Below, piece after piece: positions 10,042 to 21,830 of a DNA stretch of 64,000 bases. Numbering within the stretch: position 1 is the first letter of the stretch; each line of letters starts with the position of its first letter. The DNA comes from Rubrobacter calidifluminis. Its GTDB lineage: Bacteria > Actinomycetota > Rubrobacteria > Rubrobacterales > Rubrobacteraceae. Under the pieces are notes generated by a model, which ran no database searches, was not told where the DNA came from, and worked only from the letters and a program-made list of their open reading frames with translations. A program made the translations under genes and the position numbers. The stretch is taken from positions 1 to 64,000 of the forward strand of contig NZ_JAQKGV010000016.1 of assembly GCF_028617075.1 (NCBI RefSeq), in the 5' to 3' direction.

Positions 10042-10920
10042 TTACGCGACCCTAGCTTCTTCTATTCTATCCTCCTCGAAGTCCGCAGGGCTCATGTAGC
10101 CTAACGACGAGTGCAGACGGCGGGTGTTGTAGAACGTCTCCAGGTAGTCGAAGATCGCCGTCTTCGCCGACTGCCTGGTTGGAAACTCCAGGTTGCTCAC
10201 CAGCTCCGCCTTCAACGTCGAAACGAAGCTCTCGGCCATGGCGTTGTCCAGGGCGCTCCCGGTCCTTCCCATAGACGGGGTGATGCCCACCTCCCTGAGC
10301 CTCTCCGAGAAGGAGAGCGCGGTGTACTGCACTCCCTGGTCCGAATGATGAACCAGCCCGGGAGCAGGCTTGCGCCTCCACACCGCCATTTGGAGGGCAT
10401 CCACCACGAGCTTGGTCCTCAAGTGGCTCTCCATCGCCCAGCCCACGATCCTTCTCGAATAGACGTCGAGGATGAAGGCGAGGTAGAGGAAACCTTCTCC
10501 GCTAGCGACGTATGTGATGTCCGCCACCCAGACCCTGTCCATCTGGGTAGCCGCGAAGTTTCTCTTCACAAGATCCTCGGCAGGAGCGGCACTCTTGCTC
10601 CGGCGAGTTGTTCCTCTTTGTCTGCCACGCATACAGCCCTGTAGTCCGGCCTCTCTCATGAGCCGCGCCACTCTCTTTCTCGAACAGCGCCTCCCGAGCG
10701 ACTTCAACTCGGCATGGACCCTCGGAGAACCGTAGGTCTCTCTGCTTCTGCGGTGGATCTCGCTGATCTTCTCGATGAGGATGGCGTCCTGGCGGCTCCT
10801 CCTGGATGGTGGCCTGCCCCTCCAGGCGTAGTAGCCACTGCGAGAGACTTCGAGCATCCGGCACAACAGCGCGACGGGTAGATGAGCCCTCTCCGCGTCG
10901 ATGAACCTGAAGAGGTTCAC
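10042..10920 (-). CDS. IS3 family transposase OrfB (DDE integrase domain)
   Basis: A 292-residue protein with an HTH_21-like N-terminus ([20 protein letters not shown]) and an rve integrase core. The catalytic triad is visible as WVADITYV (D), [11 protein letters not shown] (D) and [14 protein letters not shown] (E). Its GTG start (10920) overlaps the orfA stop as GTGA, so it may start by coupling. The frame is also open upstream through the end of orfA, so an OrfAB fusion by -1 frameshifting (CGAAAAG near the overlap) is possible, as is usual in IS3 elements. All catalytic residues are present and the gene looks active. Confidence 0.93.
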
Positions 10921-11210
10921 CGAATCCCGTCCTCCCTGGCGAAGAAGGCTGCTGCTTTTCGCAAAACTTCCTTTTCCTGCTTGAGGATGCGGTTCTCCCG
11001 ACGAAGCCTGCTCAGTTCCTCGCGCTCTTCAGTGCTCAGCCCTTCGCGCTCACCTGCGTCGATCTCGTGCTGCTTGATCCATCTTCTTAGCGACTCGGTA
11101 GCCACTCCGAGATCTTTAGCAAGCCCTGAGATTGACTTGCCCGAGGAGCGATAGAGGCGGACAGCCTCCCGCTTGAACTCTGGTGGGTAGTGTGGTGTTG
11201 GTCCCGGCAC
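10917..11210 (-). CDS. IS3 family transposase OrfA (HTH and leucine zipper)
   Basis: A 97-residue protein, GTG start at 11210. An HTH_Tnp_1 motif ([33 protein letters not shown]) is followed by a leucine-zipper-like helix ([26 protein letters not shown]). It binds the element ends and multimerises with OrfB in IS3 family members. Its stop overlaps the orfB start by 3 bases. Confidence 0.93.
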
Positions 11211-11280: not shown

Positions 11281-11605
11281 GCCGCAAGCTGAGGGTGGAT
11301 TCCATGGTGGTAGAGACGAATATCCATCATCCTACCGACAGCGCCCTTCTTAGCAACGGGGTTCGGGTCATCAGCCGACTCTTGAGACGAGCGAAGAAGG
11401 TTTTGCCGACCGAGGTTGCCGGCCGGTTGGGCAAGGAGGCCTTTCGTACCCGCAACCGGAGCGTGAGGCGCACGGCTCAAAGGCTGCACAGGATCGCCCG
11501 GCGCAAAGGTGAGGACGCCGAAAAGGAACTCAAAGAGGCTTACCGGAAGCTGATCGGCATAACCCGCTCGATACCGCCCGTGCCCTCGAAGAAGCCCTCG
11601 GTTGA
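11281..11605 (+). pseudogene. 3' remnant of the DUF772-type transposase
   Basis: It continues the frame of 9581-10008 after the IS3 element: RKLRVDSMVVETNIHHPTD then VISRLLRRAKK and AEKELKEAYRKLIGITRS. Near 11568 a one-base loss moves the homology to another frame (DTARALEEALG), ending at TGA 11603-11605. The remaining C-terminal DDE part of a normal copy (about 450 or more residues) is absent, so the element lost its right end before or at formation of the adjacent tRNA-side junction. Confidence 0.75.
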
Positions 11606-11621
11606 GGGGTGCAGTAAACGG

Positions 11622-11641
11622 CCCCGGCGAGAAAGCCGGGG
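11622..11641 (-). terminator. probable original terminator of the tRNA-Leu gene
   Basis: A 7-bp GC stem (CCCCGGC/GCCGGGG) with a 6-nt loop lies 52 nt beyond the 3' end of the displaced tRNA-Leu fragment at 11693-11747. On the minus strand it is followed by CCGTTTAC, a weak T-rich tail. It is probably the host terminator carried away from the tRNA by integration. Confidence 0.45.
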
Positions 11642-11692
11642 TATCCTCTTTGTGGCTCAGATTTTCGCCGTTTTTGCAGAGATTTCGTCTGG

Positions 11693-11747
11693 TGCCGGAG
11701 GTGGGACTCGAACCCACACGACCTTGCGGCCACCGGATTTTGAGTCC
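11693..11747 (-). repeat. attachment site, displaced 3' half of tRNA-Leu
   Basis: Matches the 3' half of the intact tRNA-Leu gene. The T arm and acceptor (11693-11720) and the anticodon-stem core (11729-11747) are identical, while the variable arm differs (GCAA loop here, CTAGA loop in the intact gene) and is one base shorter. After excision through the 19-bp core this half would rejoin the 5' half at 19201-19229, so it is probably the native host 3' half. Confidence 0.9.
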
Positions 11748-11859
11748 TCACCTTCTTGTTCTGATGCATCCTGCCGTGTTGGGAAATCCGGCTTATACAA
11801 AGGGAATTCGGCCGTCAAGCCGGCGTCACTGTCCTACCGTGTACGGCCCTGTTCTGGCT

Positions 11860-11882
11860 CTACTGCTGCCACTACTGCTGCC
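11860..11882 (+). repeat. integrase arm-type site pair, left end
   Basis: Two direct copies of CTACTGCTGCC at 11860-11870 and 11872-11882, one base apart. The same pair in the same orientation recurs at the integrase end (19047-19068). The distance to the core is about 113 bp here and about 114 bp there. Confidence 0.8.
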
Positions 11883-11954
11883 ACCTCAAAGGGGCGTATT
11901 GGGCGTAAAGGGGACAGGATAGAATAGTAACGATGTACCACAGAACACAATAGA

Positions 11955-11996
11955 GAGGAGGCGCGGCGCGGGCCACTCCGCCGAAGAGCCCGCGCC
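11955..11996 (+). promoter_or_regulatory. leader hairpin between Shine-Dalgarno and start of the 12006 gene
   Basis: GAGGAGG (11955-11961) is the only good ribosome site before the ATG at 12006 but lies 44 nt away. Between them is a 9-bp GC stem (GGCGCGGGC 11965-11973, GCCCGCGCC 11988-11996) with a 14-nt loop. If the hairpin folds, the effective distance from ribosome site to ATG falls to about 12 nt. Confidence 0.5.
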
Positions 11997-12005
11997 ACAG
12001 TCAGC

Positions 12006-12758
12006 ATGGAGAGTTTAGCAGAGCCGGCCTGGACTGGAGGGTGTACAGGAGGAGCCCCGGCTTGCACTGATCTACTGCAAGATCCCGTCGGCGTGTTGAG
12101 TGATCCTAAGCGGTGGCCCAACCATCTTTGCTATGAGGCGTTCCTGCGGGAGAGTACGGTGCGGTGGGCACACCAGGCATACGATCGGTGGGTAAGAGTG
12201 ACAGGCAGAGAACTAACCGCCGCCGACGAGATAAGCATAAAGCGGTGGCTCGGGAGTTGGCCCCTGCCTGTAGGCTTGAGGCATCCGCAAGCGCCAGAGC
12301 CTTCGGGCATGTTACACCTTGAAGGCCATCAGGAGGCACTCTGGGCACTGCGAATCCACAAGAAGGGCTCAACATACCTCGGCAGTGTAGTAGATATCTT
12401 CGGCCTGGCGGCGTACCGTTCGAGTGAGGATGAACCCATCTCCCCCGGAAGTACAGCGTACGCCCTGTGGGGAGAAGACACATCCCTGCTTGATCTGGTC
12501 TACGCGGCCGAACGCTGGTGGTCTCGGGGCTTTGTGCAAGATCTCCATTTCGTCCGGGGGCGTCCCAGAGGTACGGGAACGTGGGCGTCCGCCCAAGCGT
12601 TTGAGAGCGACTTACGAACAGCTGTGAAAAGCCTGAATACGAAACAGGAAATGATAACCCAAGAGAAAGTTGCCGGCCTGCTGCATTGTGACGTTGCAAC
12701 GCTGAAGCGATGGCTCAAACGCTGCGGCATTAATTGGCGAGACATTAAAACGTTCTAG
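12006..12758 (+). CDS. hypothetical protein of the integrative element
   Basis: A 250-residue protein if it starts at the ATG 12006; an internal GTG at about 12093 is also possible. I do not recognise the family. The first 30 residues are cysteine- and glycine-rich and may not be translated. The middle is alpha-helical with aromatic clusters (WPNHLCYEAFL, VRWAHQAYDRWVRV). The C-terminus (TQEKVAGLLHCDVATLKRWLKRCG) has the spacing of a helix-turn-helix, so DNA binding is plausible. First gene of the element on the plus strand, 137 nt before the excisionase-like gene. Confidence 0.6.
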   Translation: MESLAEPAWTGGCTGGAPACTDLLQDPVGVLSDPKRWPNHLCYEAFLRESTVRWAHQAYDRWVRVTGRELTAADEISIKRWLGSWPLPVGLRHPQAPEPSGMLHLEGHQEALWALRIHKKGSTYLGSVVDIFGLAAYRSSEDEPISPGSTAYALWGEDTSLLDLVYAAERWWSRGFVQDLHFVRGRPRGTGTWASAQAFESDLRTAVKSLNTKQEMITQEKVAGLLHCDVATLKRWLKRCGINWRDIKTF

Positions 12759-12895
12759 TCCGCTCTTTCTTGCGCTTCATACCCTTGTGTGACGCTTGTG
12801 TATCACTTTTTTGCGCTGTTTCTGCTCTCGAATGTGTTCATAGAGCGCTCTAGAGTCGAGTGCATGTAGATGTAAAAGAGCTCATGGAGGCCGGC
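12759..12895. other. intergenic region before the excisionase-like gene
   Basis: 137 nt, relatively AT-rich for this genome. It contains two related words, TTGTGTGACG and TTGTGTATCAC (about 12784-12807), and a short inverted run GAGCGCTC. These could be repressor or Xis sites and it probably holds the promoter of the replication genes, but no clear -35/-10 pair is seen. Confidence 0.4.
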
Positions 12896-13096
12896 ATGAA
12901 CACGAGAGAAAAGCAGCGCGACTGGCTCACGGTCAAAGAAGTCGCGGAGGAGCTCCACATCCCGCGCACTCGCGCTTACGAGCTAATCTCACGCGGCGAG
13001 CTTCCAGCGGTCCGGATCGGCGAGCGCTCCATCCGGGTCAACCGGCGCGAGCTCGAAGAGTTCTTGCTCTCCGAGCGGCGCTACATCAACAGATAA
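12896..13096 (+). CDS. excisionase-family HTH protein
   Basis: A 66-residue protein. ATG 12896 is chosen because GGAGG lies at 12885-12889; the frame is open to 12860. DWLTVKEVAEELHIPRTRAYELI then ELPAVRIGERSIRVNRRELEEFL is the classic MerR-like winged-helix of the excisionase/AlpA family. In integrative elements such proteins direct excision with the integrase or activate the replication module. It is placed directly upstream of the primase genes, so either role fits. Confidence 0.85.
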   Translation: MNTREKQRDWLTVKEVAEELHIPRTRAYELISRGELPAVRIGERSIRVNRRELEEFLLSERRYINR

Positions 13097-13127
13097 AGCC
13101 CCGCCGGGGCCGGAGGGGCTGAAGCTG

Positions 13128-13307
13128 ATGCAAGTGTACAGCAACTTTCGCGAATCCGAAGTACTGGTTGAGCTTCGCGATTTTCTGGCCTGGAATCTCG
13201 AACTCGAGCCCGGGCCGGAGGAGCTCGCGGAGGCGCTCGGCGCGGACGTGTTCGCCGTTGAAGCTGCGCTCGAAGCGCTCGTGCTCGATGGGGAGCTGCT
13301 CGCATGA
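13128..13307 (+). CDS. 59-residue ORF coupled to the primase
   Basis: Starts MQVYSNFRESEVLVELRDFL and ends VLDGELLA. A GGAGGGG Shine-Dalgarno lies about 10 nt before the ATG. Its TGA overlaps the primase ATG as ATGA. The protein is acidic and helical, and the second half (PEELAEALGADVFAVEAALEAL) has the pattern of a small winged helix or ribbon HTH. It is too short to classify. Tight coupling suggests it acts with the primase, perhaps as a loader or regulator. Confidence 0.65.
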   Translation: MQVYSNFRESEVLVELRDFLAWNLELEPGPEELAEALGADVFAVEAALEALVLDGELLA

Positions 13308-16003
13308 GCATCTTCGAGCAGCTGCGCGAGCAGATATCGCTTCAGGAGCTCGCGGGACGCTTTACTGAGCTCAAACCTTCGGGAGGCAAGCTCAAGGGGC
13401 GTTGTCCGTTTGCGGATCACAGGGACGAAGAGCCAAGCTTCTACGTCTACCCGGACAACAGGTTCCATTGCTTCGGCTGCAGACGGCACGGCGATGTCGT
13501 CGATTTTTGGGCCGGCATGCAGGGCCTGGAGCTTGGCATCGAGGCTGCGCGGGCTCTGACACGGGAGTACGGCATCGAGCTGCCAGAGAATCAGGACCCT
13601 GAAGCGGCGAGGAAAGCCCAGAAGCGCCGCAGCGCGGAGGAGCGCTACCTGGAGCAGGCGGAGACATGCCACAGGGCTCTCAAGAGGCACCGGCACGTGA
13701 AGGAGTGGTGGGAAGGCCGCGGCTTTGGTGAAGCGCTGCAGAAGCACTTCCTGCTTGGCACCAACAGAGATGGCACCGAGGCGGTGATCCCGTTCTGGAA
13801 CCAGGGAAGGGCGCAGGGGATCATCCGCCGCAAGCTCGAAGGAGAGCCGAAGTACATCCTCCCGCGGACGGAGGACCTCGCCTGTGGCCACCGGCCGCTG
13901 TTCATCCCCGGCCCTGCCCACGGCGACGTGTTCCTCGTCGAAGGATACGTGGATGCTCTGGCTCTGACCGCACTCGGACAGAGCGCCGTGGCAGTCGGAG
14001 GTACCGGAATGAGCCGGGAGCAGCGCGAGGACCTGCTGCACCTTCCAGGATCTCTCTACATCCTGCCCGATGCCGACGCCGAGGGAGAAAGAGCAGCCCG
14101 CGTGTGGCTGCGTGCGCTCTACCCCAAAGCGCTCCTCTGCCCCGCGTCCTACGGCGAGGGATGTAAGGACGCCGCGGATCTCTACCAGGCGAGACGAGAG
14201 GAAGCGCGGGAGGTCCTGGAGGGCCTCAAGGCCAATGCGGTAGATGCTCTCGCTCTGGAGCTCTCCGAAGCCCGCGCAGGCAGGAACAGCCTCGATGCCT
14301 ACAGAAGGTGCAAAGAGAAGATCCTGCCGCTCCTTGTAGAGCTCGGAGATCCCGGTGAGCGGGATGCCGCGCTGCATGACGTTGCGGCCAGGCTCAAGCT
14401 CTCCATAAAGCCTCTGCGGCACGCTCTTGACGGGCTGCGTGCGGAGCGTTCCGCAAGCCTCAAGGCCGAAGCCGAACCGGGCGGCGATGACGCCGGAGTG
14501 CCGACGCCGGGAAGCAAGCGCTACGAACGCGCCATGGAACTCCTGCATGATCCTCACCTGCTTGATCGCGCCGCGCAGGACATGGAGCAGCTCGGCCACG
14601 TCGGAGAGCCGGTAGCAAAACGACTCGCGTTCGTCTGCGCAGTCTCTGCCAGAAGCGGCAACCCCATCCAGCCCTCCACACACGCTCAGAGCTCGGCCGG
14701 TAAGAACTTCCTCTGGGATACCGTCCTCTCGCTCCTGCCGCCCGAGATGGTAATAAGACGCAGCGGGCTCTCGGCCAAAGCACTCTTCCGCACCCAGGCT
14801 TCGCTCGAGGGCGCGGTTCTCTACATCCAGGAAGTATCCGGCTCAGAGGACGCCGAGTACACGATCCGCGTCATGCAGTCAGACGGCAGGCTCGAGTACG
14901 AAGCCACCGAGAAGATGCCCGACGGCTCGATGAAAAACGTCGTGCACCAGACCGAGGGGCCCACGGTGGTGGTGCAGACCACGACCAGAAGCCACCTCCA
15001 CCCGGAGAACGAAACCAGGGTGTTCCCGATCTACCTGGACGAATCCGAGCACCAGACCGCGCGCATCGTAGAGAGCATCCTCCAGGAAGCCGCCGGCGGC
15101 GGTGTAGGAGGTGAGACGCGAGAGAGCATCGTAAGCCGCTGGCACGACGCCATAAGGCTCCTCGAACCCGCTTCGGTGGTGATCCCCTACGCCGACAGGA
15201 TAGAGATACCCAGCTCCCCGCTGCGCATCCGACGCGACGCCCGTCGGCTCATAGACGTCGTCAGAGTCATAGCCTGGCTCCACCAGCACCAGAGAGACCG
15301 CAACCCCGAAGGCCACATCATCGCAACCGAAGAAGACTTCCACGAAGCCCTCCGGCTCGTCAGCGAATCGCTCAGGAGAGCCTGGCAGACCCTCACGCCG
15401 GCAGAAGAAGCCGTCCTCAGGACCATCCGCGAGCTGCCCGAGCAACTGCGCACGAAGGGCTTCAGACGCCGCGATCTAGACGTCAAAGGACTGTCGGACA
15501 GGAGCGTGAAGCTGGCGTTGAAATCACTTACCGACACCGGCTACCTCGACTGCGACGGCCGGGCAGGGCCGCAGGGCTACACCTACACCCTCGCAAGAGA
15601 CGCCGAAAAAATTTCTTTGGGTATATCTCTCTGCCCGTTGCCCGATAGCAGAGAATCCAGCTTATCTAAGCCGAATACTACCGGGCAAGAGGCATTTGCC
15701 CAATATTGCCCGATACCCGATAAAGAGCAGACAGCAGGCGTTAACGGGCAATCGGGCAAAAGCGGGCAAAACGGCCATTGCCCGATAAAAGATCCCGATT
15801 TGCAGGAAAAACGTACTATCGGGCAATCGGGCAACCCGGTAACCGAAGAAAAAATTTTCTGGGACGAGGAGCTTGCCTGCAAAGCGCATGCCCGGACGCA
15901 ATGCGAGGAGTGTTGGCGGCGGGTGCACAAGCTCAAACACGAAGGCATGGCCAAGGATTGGGCGATCGCGGAGGTGATGAAGACGGGAGATGAGCTATTT
16001 TGA
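13304..16003 (+). CDS. primase/helicase replication protein of the element (CHC2 zinc finger, TOPRIM)
   Basis: An 899-residue protein. A CHC2-type zinc finger is formed by C34, H39, C56 and C59. The TOPRIM fold shows VEGYVDAL (E213) and LPDADAEG (D255, D257). A P-loop-like SSAGKN (463-468) followed by GAVLYIQE suggests an ATPase, shorter than usual Walker A. Residues about 690-760 look like a winged helix (RDLDVKGLSDRSVKLALKSL). The tail has a possible metal knot (CKAHARTQCEEC). Residues about 776-844 are low-complexity because the DNA there is an iteron array. A fused primase-helicase is the usual initiator of satellites and small integrative plasmids. It probably replicates the excised circle. 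Its stop overlaps the next start. Confidence 0.9.
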   Translation: MSIFEQLREQISLQELAGRFTELKPSGGKLKGRCPFADHRDEEPSFYVYPDNRFHCFGCRRHGDVVDFWAGMQGLELGIEAARALTREYGIELPENQDPEAARKAQKRRSAEERYLEQAETCHRALKRHRHVKEWWEGRGFGEALQKHFLLGTNRDGTEAVIPFWNQGRAQGIIRRKLEGEPKYILPRTEDLACGHRPLFIPGPAHGDVFLVEGYVDALALTALGQSAVAVGGTGMSREQREDLLHLPGSLYILPDADAEGERAARVWLRALYPKALLCPASYGEGCKDAADLYQARREEAREVLEGLKANAVDALALELSEARAGRNSLDAYRRCKEKILPLLVELGDPGERDAALHDVAARLKLSIKPLRHALDGLRAERSASLKAEAEPGGDDAGVPTPGSKRYERAMELLHDPHLLDRAAQDMEQLGHVGEPVAKRLAFVCAVSARSGNPIQPSTHAQSSAGKNFLWDTVLSLLPPEMVIRRSGLSAKALFRTQASLEGAVLYIQEVSGSEDAEYTIRVMQSDGRLEYEATEKMPDGSMKNVVHQTEGPTVVVQTTTRSHLHPENETRVFPIYLDESEHQTARIVESILQEAAGGGVGGETRESIVSRWHDAIRLLEPASVVIPYADRIEIPSSPLRIRRDARRLIDVVRVIAWLHQHQRDRNPEGHIIATEEDFHEALRLVSESLRRAWQTLTPAEEAVLRTIRELPEQLRTKGFRRRDLDVKGLSDRSVKLALKSLTDTGYLDCDGRAGPQGYTYTLARDAEKISLGISLCPLPDSRESSLSKPNTTGQEAFAQYCPIPDKEQTAGVNGQSGKSGQNGHCPIKDPDLQEKRTIGQSGNPVTEEKIFWDEELACKAHARTQCEECWRRVHKLKHEGMAKDWAIAEVMKTGDELF
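15631..15834. repeat. iteron array, candidate replication origin
   Basis: Six perfect copies of ATCGGGCAA or its complement: 15638-15646 (-), 15706-15714 (-), 15751-15759 (+), 15778-15786 (-), 15818-15826 (+) and 15826-15834 (+). There are at least four one- or two-base variants at 15681, 15696, 15743 and 15761. The array is flanked by AT-rich words AAAAATTTC (15606-15614) and AAAAAATTTTC (15849-15859). It lies entirely inside the primase reading frame. Mixed orientation and AT flanks are typical of iteron origins bound by their own initiator. Confidence 0.75.
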
Positions 16004-16929
16004 GCGCCAGGCGAAATCAGGTGCAACGAAACGGAGGAGGGCCCGTGACCCAAGCTGGGAAGGAGGTGGCTCGCTGGAACGCCACCCGACACGGCATCCG
16101 TTCTCCTGCCCCGGTGGTGCCCGGTATGGAGAAGATGGAAGACTGGGAAGAGCACCTTGAGGGCATACTCGAAGACCTCGCCCCAACCGGACATCTGGAG
16201 ACGGTGCTGGCCGAGAGGGTGGCACTGCTCTCCTGGAGGCTTCATCGCGTAACCCGCTACGAGACAGAGACCATCGCCCTCTCCCAGGAGAGAATAGAGG
16301 ATGATCTGGCGGACAGGCGCCGCTTTTTGAGGGTGAATCTCACCGAAGGCATACACCCTGAAGATGTACGCACCATGGCGAAGTACGCCGCCGCCAGGCA
16401 CAGGCTCTTCAAGCGGTTGCCGAAGCTCGAAGACGAGCGTGTGCTACCAGCCGAAGATGCGGAAGCGATCCTGTGGGATGCTCTCAGCCGGACGGATGTA
16501 GTAGATCGGGGAGAGGCGACCGAAGAGGAGATCCTCTCGCGTCTTTCCATCCCCGGTGTCCCTGAAGGTGTCGAGTGGGAAGAGTTCGAGGGCTGGACGG
16601 CCGGCATGGTCCGGGCCGGTCTTGAGGCCATCGCAAGGGCCACAGGCGAAGATCCCGAAGCGCTCCTTGAGGTAGCCACGGAAGAGGCCCGAAGGGAGGC
16701 GCTCAGCGCGAAGTACCAGGCGGAGCAGGTGGAGCGGGACCTCGAACGGATGAGCCGGGAGCGGCTCCTGCCGGACGATACTACACTGCAGAAGATAACC
16801 CGCTACGAAGCGCATCTCTGCCGGCTTCTCTACAAGACCCTGCACGAACTCGAAGCGCTTCAGGCCAGAAGATCGGGCCAGGCTGCGCCGCTTGCGCGGC
16901 TGGACATAGACGGATTGCCAGAGGGCTAA
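16000..16929 (+). CDS. conserved hypothetical protein with N-terminal NATRHG motif
   Basis: A 309-residue protein from TTG 16000, overlapping the primase stop; GTG 16045 is an alternative. The N-terminus RRNQVQRNGGGPVTQAGKE then WNATRHGIRS is shared by a widespread family of uncharacterised proteins on mobile and plasmid-like DNA (pattern NG-P-T-GK-NA-RHG). The rest is charged and helical, ending with ITRYEAHLCRLLYKTLHELE. Its position after the primase is where satellites often carry a small terminase. A terminase role is only a guess from position and length. Confidence 0.75.
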   Translation: MSARRNQVQRNGGGPVTQAGKEVARWNATRHGIRSPAPVVPGMEKMEDWEEHLEGILEDLAPTGHLETVLAERVALLSWRLHRVTRYETETIALSQERIEDDLADRRRFLRVNLTEGIHPEDVRTMAKYAAARHRLFKRLPKLEDERVLPAEDAEAILWDALSRTDVVDRGEATEEEILSRLSIPGVPEGVEWEEFEGWTAGMVRAGLEAIARATGEDPEALLEVATEEARREALSAKYQAEQVERDLERMSRERLLPDDTTLQKITRYEAHLCRLLYKTLHELEALQARRSGQAAPLARLDIDGLPEG

Positions 16930-16958
16930 ACTGCCGAACGAACTTCCGGGAAGACGCT

Positions 16959-17186
16959 CTAGGAGCGTTCGGGTACGACGGAGAGGATCCTTCTCAGGTC
17001 CGGCGAGTAGGTCACGAGAGCCTTGCTCTGCCCCTCATCGTCCGCGTACTCCACCAGCACGGCGGGGCGGGGATGCTCGAAGATCTCCACCACCACCCCC
17101 CTATCGCCGGCAGAGACGCCTATCTCGGGGATGCCCTGCGGGGCCCGTATCTCATCAAGCTCTCTGTACGCCGTAACGTTCGACAT
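16959..17186 (-). CDS. DUF4926-like protein
   Basis: A 75-residue protein, ATG 17186. The sequence GVSAGDRGVVVEIFEHPRPA then VLVEYADDEGQSKALVTYSP fits DUF4926, a small SH3-like barrel often found beside DUF6883 proteins. It follows the DUF6883-like gene by 14 nt on the same strand, opposite to the rest of the element. Such pairs look like toxin-antitoxin or defence cargo, which would suit stable maintenance of the element. Which partner is the toxin cannot be told from sequence. Confidence 0.7.
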   Translation of the reverse strand: MSNVTAYRELDEIRAPQGIPEIGVSAGDRGVVVEIFEHPRPAVLVEYADDEGQSKALVTYSPDLRRILSVVPERS

Positions 17187-17200
17187 ACCAGGATTTTAAC

Positions 17201-17587
17201 CTACAGCTCCTCCCTCCGCTCCTCTCTCCGCCACTGCGTGGTCCTCACGTAGAGGGTGACCAGACGTGGAAAGTCCTCCCCCACCCTGTAGATCCACTTC
17301 GTCCTCACCGGAGCCTCCCTGCCCGAAGGACCGGATACGACCATATCAACATCGTACGTCACACCCCACTCGTCCCGATGGCTGAAGACCGCCGGCCAGA
17401 CCGCCAGCCCCTCCCTGATCGCCTCGCGCAGCTCCTCCCAGTTGCCCGCCCCCTCACTGTAACCCAAAACGCCAAACGGCCTCCTCTTGTCCCGATCCCT
17501 CAGAGCGTAGCGGATCTTACCCTCGGGCACGCACGCCCGCTCGAAGTTGCGCAAAGCATCCGGATGTGGCTCTCCTCTCTCACCCAT
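17201..17587 (-). CDS. DUF6883-like protein
   Basis: A 128-residue protein, ATG 17587. The order of motifs (EGKIRYALRDRDKRRPFGVL, NWEELREAIREGL, GVTYDVDMVVSGPSG, VRTKWIYRVGEDFPRLVTLY) matches the DUF6883 pattern, in which a protein of similar size precedes a DUF4926 partner. It reads away from the XRE-integrase promoter region and is probably expressed from the 100-nt divergent space 17588-17686. Cargo of the element; function unproven. Confidence 0.68.
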   Translation of the reverse strand: MGERGEPHPDALRNFERACVPEGKIRYALRDRDKRRPFGVLGYSEGAGNWEELREAIREGLAVWPAVFSHRDEWGVTYDVDMVVSGPSGREAPVRTKWIYRVGEDFPRLVTLYVRTTQWRREERREEL

Positions 17588-17640
17588 AGCCCACGCAGCA
17601 TAGAGAAAAGAAAAAGAGAAAACATCCCCGATCTACTCCC

Positions 17641-17678
17641 TCTAGTGTATTGACTAGACAATACGAAAGCAATAAAAT
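17641..17678 (+). promoter_or_regulatory. promoter of XRE-integrase operon with overlapping dyad
   Basis: -35 TTGACT (17650-17655), 17-bp spacer, -10 TAAAAT (17673-17678). An inverted repeat TCTAGT/ACTAGA (17641-17646 and 17653-17658) straddles the -35. The ATG at 17687 comes 8 nt after the -10 and lacks a Shine-Dalgarno, so the mRNA is probably leaderless. The dyad is a candidate operator for the XRE protein encoded immediately downstream. Confidence 0.75.
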
Positions 17679-17686
17679 ATCCAAGT

Positions 17687-17890
17687 ATGGAGGTAGACCA
17701 CACGAAGTTGAGGCGGCTACGGCAGGAGAGGGCTCTCTCCATCCGGGAGCTGGGCGAGAAGGCCGGGGTATCTACGGAGACGATCTACAGCCTCGAACAC
17801 GGACGCAGGGAGTGGGCGTGGCCCCGCACGGTGCGCAGGCTGGCACAGGCGCTCGAAGTGGAGCCGAAAGAGTTGATGAAGGGGGAGTAG
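17687..17890 (+). CDS. XRE-family HTH repressor
   Basis: A 67-residue protein that is almost only a Cro/C1-type HTH: KLRRLRQERALSIRELGEKA then VSTETIYSLEHGRR and RRLAQALEVEPKELM. It starts at the -10-proximal ATG 17687 (leaderless) and its stop lies 5 nt before the integrase GTG. Probably the master repressor of the element, controlling itself and the integrase through the dyad over the -35. Confidence 0.9.
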   Translation: MEVDHTKLRRLRQERALSIRELGEKAGVSTETIYSLEHGRREWAWPRTVRRLAQALEVEPKELMKGE

Positions 17891-17895
17891 CGAAG

Positions 17896-19044
17896 GTGGC
17901 GAGGAAGAAGGAGCAGGGCAACGGGACTGGCACGGTCTACCCTCGAAAGAACAAGGCCGGGAAGGTCATCGGGTATCGGGGTAGTTACTTCACTGCGGAT
18001 GGCAGACGCCGCTACGTGTCCGCCAAGACCAAGACTGAGGCGCGGCGTGCTTTGAGGCAGGCTATGGCGGACGCGGATCGGGGCCTTATCTTCGACGCAG
18101 AGGGCCTCAAGGTGGGTGAGTACCTGAACCGCTGGCTTGCCGACTCCGTGAACGGCACCGTGAGGGCGACGACCTTCGAGCGCTACGAGCAGATCACGCG
18201 CGTCCATCTCAAACCCACGCTCGGGCAGGTAAAACTCAAGGCCCTTACGCCGGCGCACGTGCGCGGTCTCTACAAGGAGAAGCTAAAGACCCTGAGCCCC
18301 CGCACCGTGCAGTACATCCACGTTACGCTCCACAAGGCGCTCTCGCAAGCCGTCATGGACGGGCTTATCCCGCGCAACGCCACGGAGGCCGTCAAGCCCC
18401 CGCAGGTGCGCCGGGAGGAGATACGGCCCCTAACTCCCGACCAGGTCAGGGCGCTGCTCGACGCCGCGAGCGGAGACCGCCTGGAGGCCCTCTACGTCCT
18501 CGCCGTTCACACGGGACTGAGGCAAGGCGAGCTCCTCGCACTCCGGTGGGATGACGTGGATCTCGAAAGCGGCACGCTCCAGGTCCGCCGGACGCTTTCG
18601 ATGACGAAGGATGGCCCGGCCTTCACGGCTCCGAAGACCGCCGGATCCCGCCGGAGCGTGAAGCTCACTAACGCGGCTGCCGAGGCTCTACGGGGCCACC
18701 TCAAACGCCAGCTCGCCGAGATGGATAAAGCCGGCTCACTGTGGAGAGCCGGAGAGTACGACGGCCTCATCTTCGCCTCAGAGACCGGCATGCCCCTCGA
18801 CAGGAGGGACCTCACCACACGCCGGTTCAAACCGCTCTTGAGGCGTGCCGGGCTTCCACAGATACGGTTCCACGACCTCCGCCACACCTGCGCCACGCTA
18901 CTGCTGAGCAGAAACGTCAACCCCAAAATAGTCTCGGAGATGCTCGGACACGCCACCATTGCTATCACCCTCGATACATACTCCCACGTGCTGCCGAACA
19001 TGCGAGACACGGCCGCGAAAGCGCTGGAAGAGGCCCTCTCGTGA
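17896..19044 (+). CDS. int: tyrosine recombinase, integrase of the tRNA-Leu element
   Basis: A 382-residue protein. GTG 17896 is chosen; the frame is open further upstream but is then just a shadow of the XRE gene. Arm-binding AP2-like N-terminus (GTVYPRKNKAGKVIGYRGSY), SAM-like core-binding domain (GEYLNRWLADSVNGTVRATT), and catalytic domain with R near 204 (HTGLRQGELLALRW), HDLRH near 325, LGHATIAITLDTYSH with Tyr near 363. All catalytic residues are intact. It ends 100 bp from tRNA-Leu(CAA), its integration target. Paired arm-type repeats begin directly after its stop. Confidence 0.97.
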   Translation: MARKKEQGNGTGTVYPRKNKAGKVIGYRGSYFTADGRRRYVSAKTKTEARRALRQAMADADRGLIFDAEGLKVGEYLNRWLADSVNGTVRATTFERYEQITRVHLKPTLGQVKLKALTPAHVRGLYKEKLKTLSPRTVQYIHVTLHKALSQAVMDGLIPRNATEAVKPPQVRREEIRPLTPDQVRALLDAASGDRLEALYVLAVHTGLRQGELLALRWDDVDLESGTLQVRRTLSMTKDGPAFTAPKTAGSRRSVKLTNAAAEALRGHLKRQLAEMDKAGSLWRAGEYDGLIFASETGMPLDRRDLTTRRFKPLLRRAGLPQIRFHDLRHTCATLLLSRNVNPKIVSEMLGHATIAITLDTYSHVLPNMRDTAAKALEEALS

Positions 19045-19046
19045 TT

Positions 19047-19068
19047 CTACTGCTGCCCTACTGCTGCC
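19047..19068 (+). repeat. integrase arm-type site pair, right end
   Basis: Two abutting copies of CTACTGCTGCC (19047-19057 and 19058-19068) directly after the integrase stop, matching the pair at 11860-11882. Confidence 0.8.
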
Positions 19069-19098
19069 AAAGCTGTCGGCGCACGCGCCGGCAGCTTT
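19069..19098. terminator. bidirectional hairpin terminator after the integrase
   Basis: A 12-bp stem, AAAGCTGTCGGC with GCCGGCAGCTTT (one U-G pair), and a 6-nt loop. Read on the plus strand it ends in CTTTCT; the A-run on the other side gives CAGCTTT on the minus strand. It can end integrase mRNA and shield the tRNA side. Confidence 0.65.
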
Positions 19099-19144
19099 CT
19101 CCCTCGCGCCGAATTTTCCCCCTATTTGCAGGTATTTTCTCTTG

Positions 19145-19229
19145 TGCCGGAGGTGGGACTCGAACCCACACGGCCTCTAGGGCCACCGGATTTTGAGTCC
19201 GGCGCGTCTACCGGTTCCGCCACTCCGGC
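19145..19229 (-). tRNA. tRNA-Leu (anticodon CAA)
   Basis: An 85-nt class II tRNA. Acceptor GCCGGAG pairs with CTCCGGC, discriminator A at 19145, no encoded CCA. Anticodon loop CTCAAAA gives CAA. Variable arm stem GGCC/GGCC with loop CTAGA. T loop GTTCGAGTC. A -10-like TATACT lies upstream at 19244-19249 (minus strand). Its 3' half was supplied by the integrated element and differs in the variable arm from the displaced copy at 11693-11747. Confidence 0.95.
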
Positions 19230-19301
19230 TCTCGGGCGGAGCAAGTATAGCATGTAGCCTTCTGGTCCTGGCCGCACGACCCAGTATAATCACGATACAT
19301 T

Positions 19302-21830
19302 ATGCGCCTGTATTTGATCGACGGATACTCGCTTCTCTACCGGGCTTTCTATGCTCTTCCGCAGAGCATATCCACCCGTGAGGGGCTCATGACCAACGCC
19401 CTCTACGGGTTCACGAGCGTCCTGCTCAAGATCCTCGGCGAGGAGGGCGAGAAGGGGGTCGCGGTCGTCTGGGACGGTGGGCTGCCCAGCTCCCGGACCG
19501 GGCTCTACGAGGGGTACAAGGCGCAGAGGAAACCCATGCCGGAGGAGCTCAAGGACCAGCTCGAGCACCTCGACGACATCCTCCGGGCGATGAACGTGCC
19601 GGTCGTCAGGGTCGAGGGGCACGAGGCCGACGACGTCATAGCCACCCTCTCACGGCGGGTGCCGGAGGGGAGCGAGCTCATGATCGTCACCGGGGATCAG
19701 GACGCCATGCAGCTCGTAGACGGCAACGTCAGGGTGATGCGCACCAGCTCCAGGAGCGGATTCTCCGAGACGAAGGTCTACGGGAGGGAGGAGGTCGTCG
19801 AGGAGTACGGGGTCACCCCGGAGCAGATCCCGGACTACAAGGCGCTCACCGGGGATCCTTCGGACAACATCCCCGGCGTGCGGGGGATCGGCCCCAAGAG
19901 CGCCTCGAAGCTCCTGCAGAGGTTCGGGAGCCTGGAAGGCATCTACGAGCACCTGGACGAGGTTTCTCCCGAGGGGACGCGCCGCAAGCTCGAGGAGGGA
20001 AGAGAGAGCGCTTTCATGTCGCTCGAGCTGGCGCGGATGCACTTCGACGTACCGGTGGATTTCGATCTCGAAGGGCTCAGGTTCGAAGGGGTCGCGCCGG
20101 AGTGCCGGGAGGTCTTCGAGCGCTACGAGTTCAACAGCTTCCTTGAGAGGCGGCTGCCGGAGCTGCCGGTGGCCGGTGGCGGCAGGGTCGAGGCGCCGCG
20201 CCGGAGACGCGTCCGGATCGCGGGAGAACCATCGGAGCCGAGCCTCGACCCGGTGGCCGTGGCGCCGGTCGGCGACGGGCGCTGGGCCGTCGCCACCGCC
20301 GGGGACGAGGCGTACGTCTCCGGGGAGCTCCCGGCCGGACAGCTCTGGGTACACGACGCCAAGGGCTGCGGCGTGAGGCGGGCCAGCTTCGACACCTACC
20401 TCGCCGCCTACCTCATACAGCCCGGCACCCGCAGCTACGAGCCCGAGACGCTGGCCCGGGAGCGGGGTCTCGAGGAGGTCGAAGTCGAGCACGAGGACCC
20501 CGAGGTGGCCGGCGCCGCGCGGCGGGCGGCGCTGGTCTACGCGCTCGTCCCCGGTCTGCGCGACGAGCTCGAGGAGATGGAGCTCTCCCGCCTCTATTAC
20601 GAGGTCGAGCTCCCGCTCGCCGACGTGCTCGCGAAGATGGAACGGGTGGGGATGCCGGTGGACGTGGGGACGCTCGAGGAGGTCGGGCGGGAGATAGAGG
20701 GCAGGATCTCCGAGCTCGAGGCCAGGATCTTCGAGGAGGTGGGGCACCCGTTCAACATCAGCTCGCCCAAGCAGCTCGGGGAGGTTCTCTTCGAGGAGCT
20801 CTCCATACCCCCCGTCAGGAAGACCAAGACCGGATACTCCACCGACGCCAAGGTGCTCCAGCAGCTCGCGCTGCAGGGTTACACCGTGGCCGGGCGGGTC
20901 ATCGAGTACCGCGAGCTCACCAAGCTCCGCGGCACCTACGTGGAGGCCCTGAGCAGGCTCGTCGGCGAGGACGGGCGCATCCACACCACGCTGAACCAGA
21001 CCACCACGGCCACCGGGCGCATCTCGAGCGACTCGCCCAACCTGCAGAACATCCCCGTGCGCACCGAGCTCGGGGCGCGCATCAGGGACGCGTTCACCGC
21101 CTCCGAGGGCCGCGTTCTGCTCGTCTGCGACTACTCGCAGATAGAGCTCAGGATCCTTGCGCACATGACCCGGGAGCCCGCGCTCGTCGAGGCCTTCCGG
21201 AGCGGGGAGGACATCCACACCCGCACCGCTTCAGAGGTCTTCGACGTCAGGCCCGAGAGCGTGACCCCCGAGCTCAGGCGGAGGGCCAAGATGGTCAACT
21301 TCGGCATCCTCTACGGCATCTCCGGATACGGGCTCGCCACGCGCCTCGGCAACGTCCATCCCTCCGAGGCCGAGCGTTACATAAAGCGCTACCTCGAGCG
21401 CTACCCCAGGGTCAGCGAGTTCATCCGCAAGACCAACGAGGAGGCGAGGGAGCTCGGGTACACCACCACCCTCTTCGGCAGGAGACGCTACGTCCCCGAG
21501 CTCAGGAGCAAGAACAAGAGCGTCCAGAGGCTCGGCGAAAGGCTCGCGTTCAACGCCCGGGTGCAGGGAACGGCCGCGGACATCATCAAGATCGCGATGG
21601 TGGACATAGACGGGCGGCTGCCGGAGGGGGTGGATATGATCATGCAGGTCCACGACGAGCTCGTCTTCGACGTCGAGAGGGATCTGGTCGGGGAGGTCGC
21701 CGCGCTCGCCGCCGCGCGCATGGTCGCGGCCTGCGAGCTCGACCCCCCGCTCGAGGTCGAGATAAAATCCGGGGAGAGATGGGGCAGCGTCGCGCCCCTG
21801 TTCCTGCAAAAGAGTGATAGAATGAGCTAG
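19302..21830 (+). CDS. polA: DNA polymerase I, proofreading domain degenerate
   Basis: An 842-residue protein. The N-terminal 5' nuclease (residues 1-285) has YLIDGYSLLYRAFYAL, GHEADDVIATL and GVRGIGPKSASKLL. The 3'-5' exonuclease region (about 300-420) is short and lacks the Exo I and Exo III acidic motifs, so it should have no proofreading, as in Taq polymerase. The polymerase domain has motif A DYSQIELR (about 609), O-helix RRRAKMVNFGILYG (about 660) and motif C QVHDELVFDV (about 783). It fills gaps after nucleotide excision repair. TATAAT at 19285-19290 lies only 11 nt before the ATG, so the message is almost leaderless. Confidence 0.98.
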   Translation: MRLYLIDGYSLLYRAFYALPQSISTREGLMTNALYGFTSVLLKILGEEGEKGVAVVWDGGLPSSRTGLYEGYKAQRKPMPEELKDQLEHLDDILRAMNVPVVRVEGHEADDVIATLSRRVPEGSELMIVTGDQDAMQLVDGNVRVMRTSSRSGFSETKVYGREEVVEEYGVTPEQIPDYKALTGDPSDNIPGVRGIGPKSASKLLQRFGSLEGIYEHLDEVSPEGTRRKLEEGRESAFMSLELARMHFDVPVDFDLEGLRFEGVAPECREVFERYEFNSFLERRLPELPVAGGGRVEAPRRRRVRIAGEPSEPSLDPVAVAPVGDGRWAVATAGDEAYVSGELPAGQLWVHDAKGCGVRRASFDTYLAAYLIQPGTRSYEPETLARERGLEEVEVEHEDPEVAGAARRAALVYALVPGLRDELEEMELSRLYYEVELPLADVLAKMERVGMPVDVGTLEEVGREIEGRISELEARIFEEVGHPFNISSPKQLGEVLFEELSIPPVRKTKTGYSTDAKVLQQLALQGYTVAGRVIEYRELTKLRGTYVEALSRLVGEDGRIHTTLNQTTTATGRISSDSPNLQNIPVRTELGARIRDAFTASEGRVLLVCDYSQIELRILAHMTREPALVEAFRSGEDIHTRTASEVFDVRPESVTPELRRRAKMVNFGILYGISGYGLATRLGNVHPSEAERYIKRYLERYPRVSEFIRKTNEEARELGYTTTLFGRRRYVPELRSKNKSVQRLGERLAFNARVQGTAADIIKIAMVDIDGRLPEGVDMIMQVHDELVFDVERDLVGEVAALAAARMVAACELDPPLEVEIKSGERWGSVAPLFLQKSDRMS

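Follow-up and report, generated by a model that had tools for sequence, protein, structure and literature searches.

A self-replicating integrative element in a tRNA-Leu gene of Rubrobacter calidifluminis: a candidate capsid-less phage satellite

Introduction

What carries a mobile element from cell to cell when it brings a replication gene of its own and no recognised gene for a capsid or for transfer? The question is raised by a 7,453-bp element lying in a gene for tRNA-Leu(CAA) of the actinobacterium Rubrobacter calidifluminis (contig NZ_JAQKGV010000016.1), within an analysed stretch of 64,000 nt that we call the window and on whose numbering all coordinates of the element are given. An earlier interpretation from the letters alone (the sequence-only reading) had proposed a phage satellite or a hitch-hiking replicating element, with a decayed prophage as its alternative. 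The host group makes the question sharper: a published survey found the Rubrobacteridae devoid of actinomycete integrative and conjugative elements (AICEs) (Ghinet 2011, PMC3218068), and we found no paper on phage satellites in the Rubrobacteraceae, yet a relative of the element crossed genera recently.

By comparing the locus with a sister species lacking the element, with related elements across the family, and with phage, plasmid and structure collections, we conclude with high confidence that the element is an intact member of a family of small mobile elements of the Rubrobacteraceae, both integrative and self-replicating. That it is also a capsid-less phage satellite with a helper phage as its vehicle, of the minimal type seen in phage-inducible chromosomal islands (PICIs), Staphylococcus aureus pathogenicity islands (SaPIs) and phage-inducible chromosomal minimalist islands (PICMIs), is our preferred candidate answer, which we consider about evenly poised.

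Results

Boundaries and empty site

The element is bracketed by two identical copies of a 20-bp core of tRNA-Leu(CAA), the left one at 11728-11747 and the right one, within the intact tRNA, at 19181-19200. Beyond the core the repeat continues as 64 bp at 86% identity, covering the 3' half of the tRNA and its flank, so the direct tRNA repeats described by the sequence-only reading are real. The intact tRNA lies on the minus strand at 19144-19229 (ARAGORN, and letter comparison with the sister genome G001), and the displaced 3' half of the host tRNA, which includes the left core, occupies 11693-11747. That reading had also asked for an empty-site strain, and G001, a congeneric sister species, supplies the exact empty site: the sequence equivalent to 11564-11747 runs straight into that of 19181-21321, with identity to the window of 95% in the left part and 98% in the right part, and holds one intact tRNA-Leu. 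The 3' half of the G001 tRNA reads as the displaced left copy does (ACGACCTTGCGG), variable loop included, and not as the tRNA now present in the window does (ACGGCCTCTAGG); therefore the crossover fell inside the 20-bp core, and the new 3' half of the tRNA came from the element. A further genome, G002, agrees with the empty site on the 5' side, where its contig stops. An IS3-type transposase pair (10042-11210) lies immediately to the left of the element, outside the displaced tRNA fragment.

Gene content

Integrase, XRE regulator, excisionase and replication genes form a complete set, with all frames open. The tyrosine integrase (382 aa; 17896-19044, plus strand; Pfam Phage_integrase, PF00589, 1.7e-30) stands beside the intact tRNA, and its relatives adjoin genes for tRNA-Val, tRNA-Arg and tRNA-Leu. 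Just ahead of it is a 67-aa XRE regulator of Cro/CI type (17687-17890, plus strand; HTH_19, 4.4e-11). The early operon runs on the plus strand from a 250-aa protein that starts at the ATG of a conserved leader (12006-12758; a C-terminal helix-turn-helix is given by a weak Pfam match only), through an HTH_17 excisionase/AlpA-like protein (12896-13096; PF12728, 1.4e-15; TIGR01764 excise) and a conserved 59-aa protein (13128-13307), to an 899-aa replication protein (13304-16003). The operon closes with a helical protein of 309 aa (16000-16929, plus strand; 294 aa if GTG 16045 is the start). Two cargo genes lie on the minus strand, encoding a DUF4926 protein (16959-17186; Pfam 6e-9) and a DUF6883 protein (17201-17587; Pfam 3.8e-17); neither these nor the proteins of unknown type gave a defence match in PADLOC, and the literature on the two families yielded one passing mention of DUF4926. 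Pfam thus confirms the integrase, the repressor, the excisionase-like protein, the primase and both cargo families as first described from the letters. Among the element's genes, Pfam and PHROGs gave no match to capsid, portal, terminase or transfer proteins, and Pfam recognised no relaxase, no genome-wide search for relaxases or type IV secretion systems having been made.

Replication protein and iterons

A DnaG-like primase with a CHC2 zinc finger and a Toprim domain makes up the first third of the 899-aa protein (Pfam Zn_ribbon_DnaG 2.7e-16, Toprim_2 1.8e-8), and a winged helix-turn-helix is also present. Residues 370-800 match no Pfam domain, and a sequence profile search with them fails to reach MCM proteins. 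An AlphaFold model of these residues (predicted local distance difference test, pLDDT, 76; predicted template modelling score 0.75) finds MCM AAA+ helicases as its best PDB matches (E 2.8e-10, probability 1.00, template modelling score 0.50), and by this fold alone the helicase half of the protein is MCM-like. Its Walker A motif reads GKN, not GKS/T, as it does in the relatives L021 and L116, and the domain is a putative ATPase. Of the primase/helicase named by the sequence-only reading, the primase is accordingly backed by Pfam, and the helicase by its fold without Pfam annotation.

Inside the 3' end of the same gene lies a cluster of iterons (15638-15834; core CGGGCAA/TTGCCCG), a candidate replication origin. 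Six copies of ATCGGGCA, on both strands, fall within 195 bp, a number reached in none of 100 dinucleotide shuffles, and the iterons noted earlier are therefore real and above chance. The cluster is richer in A+T (a fraction of 0.45-0.55) than most of the sequence immediately preceding it (0.33-0.42). In relatives whose replication protein is of another kind, the 3' part of the replication gene contains or adjoins iterons of other sequence (GTCAACAC in L023, ACCGTCAC in L125 and L087, TGATTCCA in L027, GCCAAAAC in L122); the replication gene of L087 appears split, and its iterons fall in the following open reading frame (ORF). Such clusters are not universal: of the 19 relatives tested, about one in three has a significant one. 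The iterons that SaPI Rep recognises follow directly on its own gene, and Cch, the helicase of the staphylococcal cassette chromosome (SCC), is MCM-like (PMC7581432); iterons and an MCM-like fold together argue, on anatomical grounds, that the element most likely replicates as those islands do.

The last ~45 residues of the primase (15866-16000) are 65-76% identical in the L026 and L027 replication proteins, which are of quite different types (Prim-Pol/AAA_25 and NrS-1-like), and this suggests a swapped tail domain or a recombination point.

A family of small elements

In the same genome, tRNA-Val(CAC) is occupied by an element of 7.7 kb, bounded by an exact repeat of 46 bp, that shares the 59-aa gene in the same position (63% identity) and the integrase (59%) but has a Prim-Pol/AAA_25 replication protein; a third element lies at the tRNA-Arg cluster of this genome. 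Elsewhere in the family, L027 (7.3 kb) and L023 (10.8 kb) are bounded elements with near-exact attachment repeats and the same plan. L087 is closest in its XRE regulator (85%), with an integrase at 62%, an excisionase at 67.5% and a homologue of the 309-aa protein at 62%, and has a different replication pair. At the tRNA-Arg site of G001 (L089, 8656-9829) a broken element retains DUF6883, DUF4926 and the C-terminus of the 309-aa protein at 96-98%. Modules have thus been exchanged between elements. Homologues of the 309-aa protein, at 60-75% identity, likewise close the replication operon of other Rubrobacter elements (L087, L088 and L125).

The tRNA-Arg element of our genome (G000; L025, 5024-16145) and that of G011 (L031, 6175-17298), a member of a different genus, are 99.46% identical over 11.1 kb while their chromosomal flanks are ~74% alike, and because of this disparity we read the relative as recently transferred between genera. 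A metal-ATPase-like gene stands at the far end of this element. Named contigs place the family in the Rubrobacteraceae, where these elements of ~7-11 kb, with a common set of integrase, XRE regulator and excisionase and with interchangeable replication modules, apparently form an undescribed group.

Within the Rubrobacteraceae, tRNA-Leu(CAA) is an integration hotspot. An 11.8-kb island at this tRNA in another genome (L053; G012:C11, 3894-15799) has 57-bp attachment repeats at 86% identity; it carries efflux-like cargo, no integrase was found in it, and it was left uncounted as a family member.

A conserved hairpin leader

The early operon opens with a 79-nt leader that the sequence-only reading had overlooked. 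On the plus strand, the copy in the window (11945-12020) holds AGGAGG (11956-11961), a GC-rich hairpin (11965-11996) and then ATGGAGAGTTTA, and a candidate -10 box, TAGAAT (11920-11925), precedes it. A covariance model (R1), built from the first six copies, which came from replication-module loci, finds 28 matches in 17 of 39 Rubrobacteraceae genomes, with E down to 3e-21; in a 296-genome sample of the phylum every match falls within the family. The reversed control pattern gave zero matches, and Rfam gave none for the leader. Copies occur on otherwise unrelated mobile elements (L033, L036, L038, L087, L116 and others).

TAGAAT or TAAAAT lies immediately upstream in 22 of 27 copies, suggesting a promoter. 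At the conserved ATG, 15 of the 27 begin an ORF of 250-421 codons (290-421 in the 14 besides the window's), and in one more the ORF leaves its contig after 266 codons; the encoded proteins are alike only in their first few residues. For about half of the copies a replication gene, of one of several types, or a terminase gene was identified within a few kilobases downstream; others are on short contigs or are apparent solo remnants. Paired changes occur at 5 of 13 hairpin pairs, more than in shuffles and many more than in slid controls, a count that leans towards structure since the alignment was fitted to the model; folding of single sequences is not unusual (z -0.5 to -1.8). In our reading the early operon has this sequence as its 5' leader, and the hairpin separates the ribosome-binding site from the start codon; the leader may act as RNA, or as DNA (for example, as a packaging or regulator site).

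A broader proposal, which we put forward tentatively and think somewhat doubtful, is that a large satellite family, defined by the leader, inhabits the Rubrobacteraceae, a host family without known satellites or AICEs. Its small members would exchange replication modules (DnaG-MCM, NrS-1-like polymerase and others), would integrate by means of either a tyrosine or a serine integrase, and would share one hairpin leader RNA that turns them on in response to a helper phage.

How the element might travel

Some of the evidence for a phage vehicle comes from relatives. Three leader-bearing elements carry terminase parts and no capsid genes in the available sequence: L116 has a terminase ATPase, a nuclease-like partner and a TerS-like protein, L184 a terminase nuclease, and L170 a TerS-like protein 36% identical to that of L122 (the TerS-like label reflecting position and likeness among these elements, not a family match). 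L122 itself, without the leader, has a split terminase adjoining its primase. On the short contigs L116, L122 and L115 a primase-helicase is accompanied by a large terminase that is split into separate ATPase and nuclease genes and whose closest counterparts are in Thermus phage Riverbug and Meiothermus phages MMP7 and MMP17. Possible helpers are at hand: an HK97-type capsid profile and one TerL profile had no match in the family genomes searched, and a broader TerL profile matched in 8 of 39, including two tailed prophages of the same genome (L117/L118 on G000:C6 and L119 on G000:C11) with terminase, portal-like and capsid genes.

Several observations weigh against the satellite. The element has no terS, by PHROGs and by a fold search of the 309-aa protein. 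Sequence shared with the genome's own prophages amounts to chance-level matches only, other helpers not having been searched. Neither the primase (in a close-relative search of IMG/VR), nor the 309-aa gene, nor the leader consensus (in two exact-pattern scans) was found in contigs of the viral collections. Finally, the closest replication modules beyond the Rubrobacteraceae sit on plasmids: Leptospira plasmids carry the most complete outside relatives of the replication protein, and small circular plasmids, those of Shigella (8.8 kb) and Lonsdalea (11.3 kb) among them, carry partial ones.

The last point leads to the main rival, which ranks next after the satellite and which we judge possible, though distinctly less probable than an even chance: an integrative plasmid-like element that excises, replicates by means of the primase-helicase and iterons it carries, and has no helper phage of its own, spreading by transformation, by generalised transduction or by mobilisation through an unrelated conjugative element. 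Its strength is that the outside relatives on Leptospira, Shigella and Lonsdalea plasmids stand in the order HTH, CHC2 primase, XerC-type recombinase, and that the element has no packaging gene. It has to reckon with the order of HTH_17 gene, small gene and primase and with the terminase parts in leader-bearing relatives, which indicate phages, and with the absence of a recognised relaxase from the element, relaxases not having been searched genome-wide. The plasmid module recurs in Janthinobacterium as well as in the three genera just named (L097-L100), and several of its occurrences have immunity proteins and SymE-type genes nearby.

The terminase-like gene that the sequence-only reading had placed at 16000-16929 is not supported: for this 309-aa gene, PHROGs, tblastn against phages and plasmids, IMG/VR and Foldseek against BFVD and PDB gave no terminase signal, the fold search being weak negative evidence with a structure model of moderate confidence (pLDDT 72). 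As for the satellite proposal as a whole, the PICMI-like gene order, the terminase parts of sister elements and the tailed prophages of the same genome speak for it, and the missing terminase gene and the lack of a shared packaging site or an identified helper speak against it.

A tailed prophage stripped of its structural genes would also leave an integrase, a repressor, an excisionase and a primase, all of which occur in phages, and tailed prophages are present in the genome. We nevertheless find a remnant, the alternative of the sequence-only reading, improbable: boundaries are clean and genes open within 7.45 kb, independent elements of 7.3-10.8 kb with near-exact attachment repeats follow the same plan, and the prophages of the genome share no gene with the element save a generic HTH_17 match. 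Around this module related genomes have equally small bounded elements and not larger prophages, and no larger phage with the integrase-primase module was found.

Least probable of all is an AICE or a mobilisable derivative of one, despite a tyrosine integrase that targets the 3' end of a tRNA, an Xis, a replication gene and, in one sister element, a Prim-Pol gene as in some AICEs (PMC3218068), for the element has no FtsK/SpoIIIE transfer protein, its replication protein is not RepSA, RepAM or Prim-Pol, the survey cited above found no AICEs in this subclass, and an FtsK profile gives a single strong match, taken as the chromosomal copy, in each of the 39 family genomes, and therefore no TraB. 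The empty site, the iterons, the element family and the absence of an FtsK/TraB of AICE type thus support what was first proposed, an element that is integrated, replicates itself and has neither capsid nor transfer genes, in an actinobacterial group from which none had been described.

Discussion

We propose the following cycle for the element as a phage satellite. The integrase recombines the 20-bp core in tRNA-Leu(CAA) and rebuilds the tRNA, as the empty site shows, and the XRE regulator would keep the integrated element silent. On induction, the promoter before the hairpin leader would start the early operon of regulator, excisionase/AlpA-like protein, 59-aa protein and primase-helicase. 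Integrase and HTH_17 protein would then excise a circle, on which the MCM-like helicase may load at the iterons inside its own gene while the fused primase primes, so that the circle is amplified; a helper phage would contribute capsid and terminase, and its particles would carry the copies out of the cell.

If the element is a satellite, minimal phage satellites extend to a deep actinobacterial lineage, and their replication proteins come to include one that joins a bacterial primase to an MCM-like helicase. The hairpin leader is an uncatalogued RNA or DNA element, which makes the family searchable and its induction testable.

Set beside known systems, the element resembles a minimal satellite in its proposed workings but is assigned to none of three established classes: it fails as a PICI on terS or a shared packaging site, as a PICMI on primase type and site, and as an AICE on the Tra protein. 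It resembles AICEs of the pSAM2 type in its tRNA integration, Int and Xis, replication gene and actinobacterial host, and differs in having no FtsK-like transfer protein and in its replication protein. The Leptospira and enterobacterial plasmid modules have the same type of primase-helicase beside a regulator and a tyrosine recombinase, at ~27-32% identity, on plasmids and with other cargo. SCC and SCCmec are likewise mobile islands with an MCM-like helicase (Cch, PMC7581432) and without transfer genes; they have Ccr recombinases and a separate single-stranded-DNA-binding protein, in contrast to the fused primase-helicase and tyrosine integrase described here.

The PICIs and SaPIs share with the element an integrase, a repressor, an excisionase or AlpA protein, cargo, and a primase and helicase with an iteron origin, a replication module that the element has in its anatomy and presumably in its function. 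The differences are that it has no terS and no cos or pac site in common with the prophages of its genome, that its primase is of DnaG type and not an archaeo-eukaryotic primase, and that its iterons lie inside the gene and not downstream. The PICMIs of the Vibrionaceae lack genes for capsid remodelling, and virulent phages package them, as concatemers, in their particles; the PICMI model calls for a tyrosine or serine integrase (PF00589 among others) and admits PF05930 or PF12728 as the AlpA-type regulator (PMC10803314). Compared with them, the element has a DnaG-like CHC2/Toprim primase with an MCM-like helicase and no DUF3987 or DUF5906, it sits in tRNA-Leu(CAA) and not by fis, and it belongs to a different phylum. 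It is like them in having few genes, an integrase, a PF12728 regulator of AlpA type, site-specific integration, a small gene between regulator and primase and no capsid or capsid-remodelling genes, and its order of HTH_17 gene, small gene, primase, XRE regulator and integrase resembles the alpA-up1-prim order of the PICMIs.

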